NCBI GenBank assembly: GCA_017459865.1
Contig: JAFUCD010000002.1
Coordinates: 62,001 to 126,000, forward strand
Origin: Oscillospiraceae bacterium
GTDB lineage: Bacteria; Bacillota_A; Clostridia; Oscillospirales; Oscillospiraceae
Direction: 5' to 3'
DNA: 64,000 nt
Shown: piece after piece, positions 44,585 through 46,324 of the stretch
Layout: each line of letters starts with the position of its first letter
How positions within the stretch are numbered: the stretch's first letter is position 1
Position numbers and translations under genes: made by a program
Notes under the pieces: generated by a model
What the model saw: the letters and a program-made list of their open reading frames with translations, nothing else
Told to the model about the DNA's origin: nothing
The model's database searches: none

Positions 44585-45711
44585 TCGGCTTCCTCGCTTT
44601 CCGCGTCGGACAGTTCGTCCATTTCCATGGAGTAGGAGGAGTAGTCGCCGAACATGCCGGAGTATTCGCTCTTTTTCATGATGTGGATCGCGTCGGGCTC
44701 GATGTAAAGACCGATCTCGCTGCCCTCGGCGCAGAAGTCCGTGGTCTGGATCATCCACTTGAAGCCGCCGATGTCCACGATGATCTCATAGTGGACGCCC
44801 ATGAAGGTCACGCTCGTGACCGTGCCCTGCAGCATGCCCTTTTCCCGGGCGACGATGTCCACGTCCTCGGGACGGATGACGACGTCCACGGCCTCGTTTT
44901 TGCCGAAGCCCTTGTCCACGCACTCGAAGGTGTGCCCCGAAAACGTCACGCGGAAGTCCTCGCGCATGACGCCGTCGACGATGTTGCTCTCGCCGATGAA
45001 GTCCGCGACGAAGGCGTTTTGCGGCTCGTTGTAGATATCCGTCGGCGTGCCGATCTGCTGGATGCGGCCCTCGGACATGACGACGATCGTGTCGGACATG
45101 CTCAGCGCCTCCTCCTGGTCGTGCGTGACGAACACGAAGGTGATGCCGGTGGCCTTCTGGATGTTCTTCAGCTCCTGCTGCATGTCCTTGCGGAGCTTCA
45201 GGTCGAGCGCGCCGAGCGGCTCGTCGAGCAGCAGCACCTGCGGATGGCTCACCAGCGCGCGGGCGATGGCGACGCGCTGCTGCTGCCCGCCGGAGAGGCG
45301 CGTGACGTTGCGCTTTTCAAAGCCCGTGAGCTTCACGAGCCGGAGCATCTCGGTCACCTGCTTTTCGATCTCATCGCGCGGGACCTTCTTTTCCTTTAAG
45401 GGGAAGGCCACGTTGTCGAACACATTCAGGTGCGGGAACAGCGCGTAGCGCTGGAAGACGGTGTTCACGTTGCGCTTGTGCGCCGGGACGTCGTTGATGC
45501 GCTTGCCGAGGAAGATCACGTCGCCCTCGTCCGGCGTCTCAAAGCCCCCGATCAGCCGCAGCGTCGTGGTCTTGCCGCAGCCGGAGGGCCCCAGCAGCGT
45601 CAGAAACTCGTTGTCGTAAATGTACAGATGGATGTCGTCGAGCACCTTGTTCCCGTCGTAGGACTTGGAGATGTTCTTCAGCTCGATGATCTTCTTTCTT
45701 TCGTTTTCCAT
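44581..45711 (-). CDS. potA: Spermidine/putrescine ABC transporter ATP-binding protein PotA, 376 aa
   Basis: ABC ATPase: Walker A GPSGCGKT (41-48), Q-loop VFQRYALFPH, signature LSGGQQQR, Walker B VLLLDEPLGALD, H-loop VTHDQ; then a C-terminal TOBE/MOP-like regulatory domain (about 245-350). The last 25 residues are acidic (SYSMEMDELSDAESEEAE), an addition beyond the usual end. The start ATG 45711 has GGAAGGATGG upstream; the first gene of the potA-potB-potCD operon. It is preceded by a long leader ending in an intrinsic terminator 35 nt upstream, so expression is probably set by attenuation. Confidence 0.95.
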   Translation of the reverse strand: MENERKKIIELKNISKSYDGNKVLDDIHLYIYDNEFLTLLGPSGCGKTTTLRLIGGFETPDEGDVIFLGKRINDVPAHKRNVNTVFQRYALFPHLNVFDNVAFPLKEKKVPRDEIEKQVTEMLRLVKLTGFEKRNVTRLSGGQQQRVAIARALVSHPQVLLLDEPLGALDLKLRKDMQQELKNIQKATGITFVFVTHDQEEALSMSDTIVVMSEGRIQQIGTPTDIYNEPQNAFVADFIGESNIVDGVMREDFRVTFSGHTFECVDKGFGKNEAVDVVIRPEDVDIVAREKGMLQGTVTSVTFMGVHYEIIVDIGGFKWMIQTTDFCAEGSEIGLYIEPDAIHIMKKSEYSGMFGDYSSYSMEMDELSDAESEEAE

Positions 45712-45745
45712 GTTCCATCCTTCCCGCGCGGCCTGTTGGAGCAAC

Positions 45746-45792
45746 AAAAAAAGCAAGCTCTCCGACGGCGGGTCCGCGCGTCAGAAGCTTGC
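45746..45792 (-). terminator. Intrinsic terminator in the potABCD leader, with a competing helix
   Basis: Minus strand: GCAAGCT (45792-45786) pairs with AGCTTGC (45759-45753), extended by TGACG/CGTCG after small internal loops, followed by seven T (45752-45746). Six-base GGCGGG (45806-45801) just upstream can instead pair with CCCGCC (45772-45767) in the terminator loop; that helix encloses the left arm, so the two structures exclude each other. Confidence 0.82.
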
Positions 45793-46290
45793 ACAATCAG
45801 CCCGCCCCATGCCGGATATGCCGACACAGGGAGGTGGGATATTCCTTGTCATTTGAAGAGTCTATAAGGTAGCCGTCGATGAGTCGGAATGCGCAGATGA
45901 CGCCGCAGATTTTTCGGCAGACAATGCGAAAAGCGCAGGAAATACTTTGTGTATTTCCGAGCATTTTCGCGAAGTATGCCGGAAAAGATGCAAGTCAGAT
46001 GTGTGTTCCGATCTCGTCGATGGTTACCCAAAAGCAAAGAACACTTTTACTACTCTTATTGACATTTCACAAGTTCGCGGGCGCGACCCGCAGCGGTTTA
46101 TAGTTACCAACTTATAAAACTTGAGCTTTTAACTCCATCAATAAGGCAACAGAAGTTGCCACCGCGCTTTTGCGGTATTCGGCATTCGACCCGGCTGTCC
46201 GTGTGGCCTTGGCTCGTCCGAGGGGGCGAGCGGTCGCATCTTGCTTCGGAAGACTCTAAATGAAACAGAGCGGTATTTTCCAATTGAGAC
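45753..46290 (-). ncRNA. Long structured 5' leader of potABCD, candidate riboswitch or attenuator RNA
   Basis: About 540 nt from the predicted start near 46290 to the terminator before potA, without a substantial ORF. On the minus strand there is a three-way junction closed by CGACC/GGGTCG (46236-46232 and 46192-46187) containing GCTCG/CGAGC (46231-46212); ACCGC/GCGGT; GGCAAC-TTCT-GTTGCC (near 46160-46145); GCGGG/CCCGC (near 46092-46076); and GGAAATAC-ACAAA-GTATTTCC (45958-45938). A 23-codon frame at 45852-45781, containing PPP, stops at the terminator's left arm but lacks a visible ribosome binding site. I do not recognise a known riboswitch class. An independent small RNA in the upstream half is an alternative. 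Confidence 0.55.
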
Positions 46291-46295
46291 GGTTT

Positions 46296-46324
46296 ATTTT
46301 AGCAAAGTTCGACAGCGATGTCAA
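46296..46324 (-). promoter_or_regulatory. Near-consensus promoter of the potABCD leader
   Basis: Minus strand TTGACA (46319-46324), exactly 17-bp spacer, TAAAAT (46296-46301). It is 585 nt from the potA start codon and points toward it. Confidence 0.85.

Follow-up and report, generated by a model that had tools for sequence, protein, structure and literature searches.

Among the regulatory RNAs described for polyamine genes, those close to the one analysed here include the spermidine riboswitches, which, in the available part of their description, are rare variants of the SAM-I riboswitch that stand ahead of polyamine genes and in which spermidine triggers premature transcription termination, making them off switches (PMC10853860); the same source, to the extent available, judges the evidence for earlier polyamine-riboswitch claims unconvincing (PMC10853860). 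Other non-coding elements tied to polyamine genes are, in the accessible portions of the respective papers, the potE and odc1 motifs (PMC8632094), of which the odc1 motif is single-stemmed, with a large loop and a pseudoknot, and the speF motif (PMC11477304). The raiA motif, or ModT RNA (RF03072), is, in the available part of its description, reported to act in trans, with comFC/raiA as neighbouring genes (PMC11706538), and the spermidine claims in the accessible part of PMC10043782 concern fungi only. Here we analysed the RNA leader of the minus-strand potA operon, which encodes a spermidine/putrescine transporter, in a stretch of 64,000 nucleotides (nt) from an Oscillospiraceae bacterium (contig JAFUCD010000002.1; the whole stretch is called the window below).

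The window leader is a member of a catalogued but functionally orphan, widespread RNA family, and carries a mobile repeat in a peripheral hairpin. Computation established its homology to this family, the association of the family with polyamine genes, co-varying helices, a terminator and the complementarity of an antiterminator, and the polyamine-gene leader RNA is almost certainly a cis-acting attenuator of these genes. Comparison of the sequences furthermore makes it probable that the leader is a large cis-acting polyamine OFF riboswitch, which would bind a polyamine directly and act via premature termination.

The leader RNA and RF02440

Helices are named P1 (AGAGUC/GACUCU plus an outer pairing), P2 (GACC/GGUC, with P2a and with P2b, CGG-ACAG-CCG), P3, P4 (UAUUGA/UCAAUA), P5, P6 (a three-way junction together with P6a and P6b) and P7. 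The leader and its first gene comprise the following features:

46296..46324, minus strand: sigma-70-type promoter TTGACA-N17-TAAAAT, found by motif match (TTGACA 46324-46319, TAAAAT 46301-46296)
46252..46257, minus strand: P1 5' strand AGAGTC, from duplex calculation and swap tests
46179..46236, minus strand: match to the Rfam covariance model RF02440, comprising P2 (GACC/GGTC), the variable hairpin P2a, P2b CGG-ACAG-CCG and the near-invariant AAGGCCAYACGGACAGCCGGGTC
46053..46236, minus strand: match to our covariance model R1, comprising P2, P2a, P2b, P3, P4, P5 and the three-way junction P6/P6a/P6b
46070..46091, minus strand: switching strand, the P6b 3' half plus the P6 3' strand GCGGGTCGCGCCCGCGAACTTG, able to pair either within the aptamer or, at -22.5 kcal/mol, with the 5' arm of the terminator
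45868..46032, minus strand: palindromic dispersed repeat of 165 nt in the peripheral last hairpin P7, from folding and a repeat search
45857..45861, minus strand: P1 3' strand ACTCT, the outer pairing extending into TCAAAT (45856-45851)
45746..45792, minus strand: intrinsic terminator, a hairpin (45792-45753) followed by T7 (45752-45746), its 5' arm being the antiterminator partner
44581..45711, minus strand: potA, spermidine/putrescine ABC transporter ATPase of 376 amino acids (aa), first gene of the operon (NCBIfam, Pfam)

The promoter, described as near-consensus with a 17-nt spacer in a first-pass annotation of this DNA, matches the consensus at 11 of 12 positions, and the 1.5-kb region holds 2 promoter-like sites vs 0.6 expected. 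Transcription is predicted to start near 46289, giving a leader of ~540 nt between ~46289 and the terminator at 45792-45746, with the start of potA at 45711. The annotation's further description, a long leader without a substantial gene, with hairpins including a three-way junction and a seven-T terminator directly ahead of potA, agreed with our calculations: minus-strand frames wholly inside the leader reach at most 62 aa, the leader folds at -225.2 kcal/mol (z -4.5; equalled by 0/20 shuffles), the junction region 46044-46160 folds as noted (z -3.9), and the terminator stem GCAAGC...GCTTGC has an energy of about -25.2 to -26.4 kcal/mol (z -4.1). A simple terminator scan (short stem, loop of 3-8) did not include this terminator and gave no excess, 2 vs 2.0 expected.

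Attenuation through a leader peptide, in which a short open reading frame (ORF) would sense polyamines or amino acids, is a classic layout in other bacteria. In the window leader, however, none of the short ORFs is preceded by a Shine-Dalgarno (SD) sequence, and across 177 leaders no conserved translated leader ORF was found: SD-preceded ORFs of 6-80 codons occurred in 44/177, with the most populated bin of start positions (16 ORFs) at the 5' boundary of the scanned stretch, ~95 nt before CGGACAG, and at most 3-4 in bins of the core. We consider this explanation extremely improbable.

The first-pass annotation had matched the leader to no riboswitch class and proposed it as a candidate new riboswitch or attenuator, which needs correction in that the leader does match a catalogued RNA family: positions 46179-46236 on the minus strand match RF02440, "SpF59 sRNA (ldcC RNA)", at 64 bits vs a gathering cut-off of 37.2 and over positions 1-54 of 54. 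Because RF02440 covers 54 nt of the leader and is already catalogued, the RNA is not new as a sequence family. No other Rfam family, T-box, 6S, SAM and RF03072 included, matched within 45700-46330 at E <= 10, so that neither 6S nor another unrelated RNA was detected and T-box and 6S identities were discarded; a plant microRNA model on the opposite strand stayed below threshold (23 bits vs a cut-off of 245) and sits on the repeat palindrome. The RF02440 gathering score was reached by 12 of 13 other loci scanned, with locus L083 falling short at 36 bits.

Conservation extends far past the Rfam model (TATTGATTGAGTTAAAAGCTCAAATTTTATAAGTTGG...ACTTGTGAAACGGTCAATAAGAG). Model R1, with 169 positions and 36 pairs, was built from 28 loci with the window excluded, and it found the window at 46236-46053 with 142.1 bits (E 1.2e-36) over all 169 positions. 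Whereas the RF02440 model ends after P2, the window's R1 match runs ~125 nt further; P1, P7 and the expression platform of the leader fall outside both models. Moreover, two loci found with R1, L216 and L223, lie below the RF02440 cut-off, yet have a decarboxylase gene downstream. Judged by this conservation, the 54-nt RF02440 model is only part of a larger RNA.

The alias ldcC RNA may originate with Weinberg et al. 2017, where a prior description is possible. We found no publication explaining the function of RF02440/ldcC RNA, and the gene association described below may already be in print under the alias; papers naming 'SpF59' contained unrelated strain and residue names only. The main text of PMC11109978 and that of PMC6429828 make no mention of polyamine, spermidine, lysine/arginine decarboxylase or potA.

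Genes downstream of the RNA and its distribution

Downstream genes were identified in tblastn searches with 11 queries derived from the loci themselves, in which any other gene would read as no hit. Removal of loci with identical first 110 nt left 171 distinct loci out of 185, of which 166 had sufficient downstream DNA; in five loci the DNA was too short to call a gene (L001, L002, L025, L041, L184). The RNA was found in a constant 5'-leader position before one metabolic gene group: the first downstream gene was a polyamine gene in 164 of the 166 distinct loci, namely potA in 49, adenosylmethionine decarboxylase (SpeD) in 47, Orn/Lys/Arg decarboxylase in 44 and carboxynorspermidine synthase in 24. 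All four classes lead to spermidine supply, by import, by Orn/Lys/Arg decarboxylase with SpeE/SpeB, by SpeD, or by carboxynorspermidine synthase/decarboxylase.

Among the matches listed plus the window, every one of the 114 usable loci (of 119 in total, five of which stop too soon) had a same-strand polyamine gene first downstream (potA 34, Orn/Lys/Arg decarboxylase 31, SpeD 28, carboxynorspermidine synthase 21), and potB lay behind potA in 28 of the 34 potA loci of this set. A polyamine gene was likewise present at 40 of the 41 loci found with the Rfam model (L129-L169, some near-identical to earlier loci), came first in 23 of 24 usable Lactococcus-family loci, and was assigned at 19 of the 20 places matched by R1, the twentieth being L137, which had already been assigned SpeD. 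Representatives of carboxynorspermidine decarboxylase, SpeD, SpeE and agmatinase passed their NCBIfam cut-offs, as did the window potA with 575 bits vs a cut-off of 550 (query with two extra N-terminal codons). The decarboxylase and carboxynorspermidine synthase representatives matched their NCBIfam families below the curated cut-off, and the substrates of these two enzymes are therefore unsettled.

The frequency of decarboxylase (44/166) and SpeD (47/166) as first genes would also suit a riboswitch for a neighbour in the pathway (agmatine, arginine, carboxyspermidine, decarboxylated S-adenosylmethionine (SAM) or similar) instead of the polyamine end product. However, potA import (49/166) and the carboxynorspermidine route (24/166) share only the polyamine end product, the latter route needing no SpeD, and no SAM-type Rfam family matches the leader. 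A ligand of this kind is thus unlikely.

The same gene data bear on a mainly trans-acting small RNA (sRNA) that ends at the terminator. Rfam types RF02440 as an sRNA, and a terminated leader would look alike; yet the RNA is placed on the same strand before a polyamine gene in 164/166 distinct loci, and the terminator arm matches its own aptamer strand (see below), as a cis-regulator requires. We regard a mainly trans-acting role as very improbable, and a stand-alone trans RNA was rejected because the downstream genes proved constant.

Individual loci showed further arrangements. In L152 an apparently intact M28-family peptidase with a PA domain (1845-3053, plus strand) runs off the locus, the sole such non-polyamine case, and L200 carries from 1971 an IS200-like transposase remnant where its relatives L196, L197 and L199 carry a decarboxylase gene. 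L117 has a whole polyamine gene set on either side of the leader.

A 23-nt pattern drawn from the conserved core matched at least 118 loci in genome contigs of Bacilli (Paenibacillus, Bacillus, Neobacillus, Lactococcus), Clostridia including many Oscillospiraceae, Negativicutes and a Synergistaceae bacterium; no match was seen in viral contigs with one exact pattern. In genome sampling, where counts include the centre genome each time and strict filters make all of them lower bounds, RF02440 was present in at least 11/299 genomes from the phylum of a Paenibacillus genome (presumably Bacillota), at least 33/147 from the order of L035's genome, at least 4/61 from the phylum of L078 (a Synergistaceae record) and at least 23/117 from the family of a Lactococcus genome, while R1 was present in at least 20/398 sampled genomes from the phylum of the same Paenibacillus genome, L216 and L223 among them. 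Matched genomes held one copy each, except for three Lactococcus-family genomes with two, where each time one copy lay ahead of potA and the other ahead of a decarboxylase gene. Lactococcus lactis was the sole carrier among 14 control genomes.

Helices, the proposed switching strand and the 165-nt repeat

We compared the pairing of each leader's own helix halves with that of halves from other leaders (swap tests, 5000 permutations, in which kinship between sequences stays in). Conserved secondary structure with compensatory changes was found, and the covariation that the first-pass annotation had proposed as a check was present across relatives for P2a (z -20.9), P3 (z -15.9), P5 (z -12.2), P1 (z -10.8, the window's own leader having dropped out of this test) and P6b (z -6.8), each with 0/5000 permutations; P7, and P1 within the potA class, were the parts without support. 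When the comparison was widened to the 5' leader and the stretch that follows the aptamer, it gave z -9.5 overall, -6.5 in the carboxynorspermidine class and -5.0 in the SpeD class. The outer part of P1, which involves 46280-46289 (TCTCAATTGG) in the window, pairs less strongly there than in relatives. In alignment A1, 97.6% of cells pair, and double-sided changes numbered 59 vs 18.5 in shuffles and far fewer when partners were slid. Many other leader pairs never vary and hence lie beyond the reach of covariation tests.

The switch was analysed in 142 of the 154 loci with a gene call (of 160), chosen by a recognisable CUUG strand. A terminator was present ahead of the gene in 137/142 of them (not found in L068, L111, L145, L154 and L160), and in 120/137 the sequence around its 5' arm contained CAAG or CAGG, which complements the CUUG in the 3' strand of P6. 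After removal of similar strand/arm pairs, which reduced the 137 to 114 non-redundant ones, the P6 strand paired with its own terminator arm at a mean of -15.39 kcal/mol vs -12.40 kcal/mol when swapped (z -12.8, 0/10,000). The effect was seen in the potA (z -7.2), decarboxylase (z -6.2) and SpeD (z -6.8) classes, and three control strands were flat (z 0.4, 0.8 and -1.1). An earlier terminator search with shortened potA leaders had found 125/142, with an antiterminator z of -11.6 (-10.7 with longer segments). Furthermore, complementarity is kept where the sequence differs, as in L098 (GCAGACUUG with CAAGUCUGC), L078 (GUACUUG with CAAGUAC) and L136 (UGCUUG with CAAGCA). In the window, the strand ending ...GAACUUG pairs with GCAAGCUUCUGACGCGCGGACCC at -22.5 kcal/mol vs -25.2 kcal/mol for the terminator hairpin. 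The computation thus yields an expression platform with mutually exclusive helices; since the terminator's competitor is built from the aptamer itself, this is the anatomy of a ligand-controlled attenuator in which the bound state would favour termination.

A helix of GGCGGG and CCCGCC had been put forward by the first-pass annotation as incompatible with the terminator. Both strands do occur in the window leader (45806-45801 and 45772-45767), but the competing helix with comparative support is that between the junction-helix strand 46091-46070 and the terminator 5' arm, and GGCGGG/CCCGCC was dropped as the main switch since the supported strand lies in P6 instead.

In L180-L195, L198 and L201-L204 the P6 junction is, by eye, seemingly swapped for another domain (CCCAAGAAA... 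then a CGCTTGCGC-like strand), and the complementary terminator arm persists in many of them. The leader of L013 (Ruminococcaceae bacterium RUG12748) has lost the 3' half of the junction and kept the terminator and the decarboxylase gene; it may be a natural deletion stuck in one state.

The same attenuator could instead be triggered by a protein or ribonucleoprotein that reports polyamine status by binding the leader. The permutation and covariation evidence suits any trigger, and a protein could relay the polyamine state. However, ~236 nt with long near-invariant stretches, found from Bacilli to a Synergistaceae bacterium, exceed what a protein-bound attenuator usually needs. Nor do the loci widely share any gene family upstream of the RNA, where the largest family confined to that side occurs in 6 loci. 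ABC-ATPase matches were found in the upstream flanks of eight loci. A protein trigger is in our estimate improbable, and we favour direct binding of a polyamine.

The 165-nt insert of the window lies between TTTGCT and TTATAGACTCT and forms a single long hairpin, an imperfect palindrome of -67.8 kcal/mol; it was not found in the other leaders compared. A search of six related genomes gave 17 matches to dispersed palindromic relatives, with 11, 5 and 1 in the three genomes that had any. By these comparisons the insert is a repeat resembling a miniature inverted-repeat transposable element (MITE-like, our own label) that landed in a length-variable peripheral hairpin. The stretch AGATCGGAACACACATCTGAC inside it, which resembles a sequencing adapter, pairs within the palindromic repeat, and the adapter reading was dropped for this reason. 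The palindrome and its dispersed relatives form a MITE-like family worth its own description.

Such an insert raises the question of whether the window copy is impaired, leaving the leader constitutive or poorly regulated, through the repeat in P7, the weaker outer P1 and a P4/P6 joint one base shorter (GAAATGTCAATA vs GAAATGGTCAATA in relatives); the insert does come from a dispersed repeat family and is absent from the other leaders compared. On the other side, the last hairpin, where the insert lies, is variable in length, the insert pairs with itself, the core reaches 142 bits, L033 and L152 share the same shorter joint, and the antiterminator pairing is strong (-22.5 kcal/mol). Impairment is unlikely, and because the core scores well the function of the window leader is expected to be kept despite the insert.

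Downstream of potA the operon continues with two frames:

43697..44593, minus strand: potB-like permease, start codon approximate (Pfam)
41710..43704, minus strand: potC-potD fused in a single 664-aa frame, permease domain plus solute-binding domain (ORF list, Pfam)

Single frames of 657-659 aa occupy the position of this PotC-PotD fusion in the related potA loci L059, L080 and L114. The upstream neighbour of the leader is the divergent gene hprK (Pfam), the first of a plus-strand series (46487-54750) whose subsequent frames resemble, by eye, murB, rapZ, yvcK, whiA and dnaE.

Proposed mechanism and comparison with known systems

We propose that transcription starts near 46289 and that the core from P1 (46257) to P1' (45857), 401 nt or ~236 nt without the repeat, would fold into P1-P7 around a near-invariant centre. 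When a polyamine, most likely spermidine, is plentiful, the aptamer would hold the P6 3' strand (...CUUG) in the three-way junction, and with this strand held there the terminator ahead of potA would form and transcription would stop. When the polyamine is scarce, the P6 strand would pair with CAAG... in the 5' arm of the terminator, whose hairpin would then not form, and the pot operon would be transcribed. That spermidine in particular is the ligand we put at about an even chance. The earlier proposal of polyamine-controlled attenuation thus stands in part: the evidence supports a structured leader that attenuates a polyamine operon in cis, with covariation and a gene association pointing to a polyamine-related signal, whereas the family is not new and the switch helix is a different one.

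Several results weigh against this mechanism, for which the support is computational throughout. The antiterminator test was null within the carboxynorspermidine-synthase class (z -0.2), and 16 distinct Lactococcus-family pairs pointed in the same direction only weakly (z -1.6, 597/10,000, with a crude terminator finder). P7 had no covariation support (swap test z 0.0), and the wider P1 test was weak within the potA class, the window's own (z -1.8, 376/10,000), and gave z -2.6 in the decarboxylase class. The permutations leave sequence kinship in; in A1, two of five measures did not exceed shuffles, namely pairs with two-sided change (6 vs 4.7, 57/500) and further pair types (30 vs 28.9, 166/500); and in a phylogeny-aware simulation just 4 pairs, all of P2/P2a, were without equal in 60 simulations. 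Finally, the first gene is a different one in two distinct loci: an M28 peptidase in L152 and an IS200-like remnant in L200.

The family precedes genes of the entire spermidine supply pathway, and its proposed switch can be tested with one compensatory mutation pair. If the mechanism is true, polyamine sensing in Firmicutes would become directly testable, and a full regulatory RNA would replace the 54-nt 'sRNA' entry. In Rfam, RF02440 is typed as an sRNA with a title naming Streptococcus, whereas the leader here precedes polyamine genes in cis position.

As far as the respective descriptions are available, the leader compares with known systems as follows. Like the raiA motif/ModT RNA it is a large conserved structured RNA of Bacillota, but that RNA reportedly works in trans and lies beside comFC/raiA (PMC11706538), and identity with it was rejected as RF03072 is unmatched in the window leader. 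The potE, odc1 and speF motifs have other first genes and are set apart from the leader by their descriptions alone (PMC8632094, PMC11477304). With the spermidine riboswitch it shares the position at polyamine genes and the proposed OFF termination; that riboswitch, however, has a SAM-I aptamer (PMC10853860), whereas the window leader matches no SAM family at E <= 10, and identity with a SAM-I variant was rejected on this ground. On these comparisons we lean towards the view that the family represents a second class of natural polyamine riboswitches, not related to the SAM-I variants and having an aptamer of ~236-270 nt with a near-invariant core, which would serve all spermidine routes (import, decarboxylase, SpeD and the carboxynorspermidine pathway) in Bacillota and Synergistota through one conserved terminator/antiterminator exchange while tolerating a mobile palindromic repeat in a peripheral hairpin.

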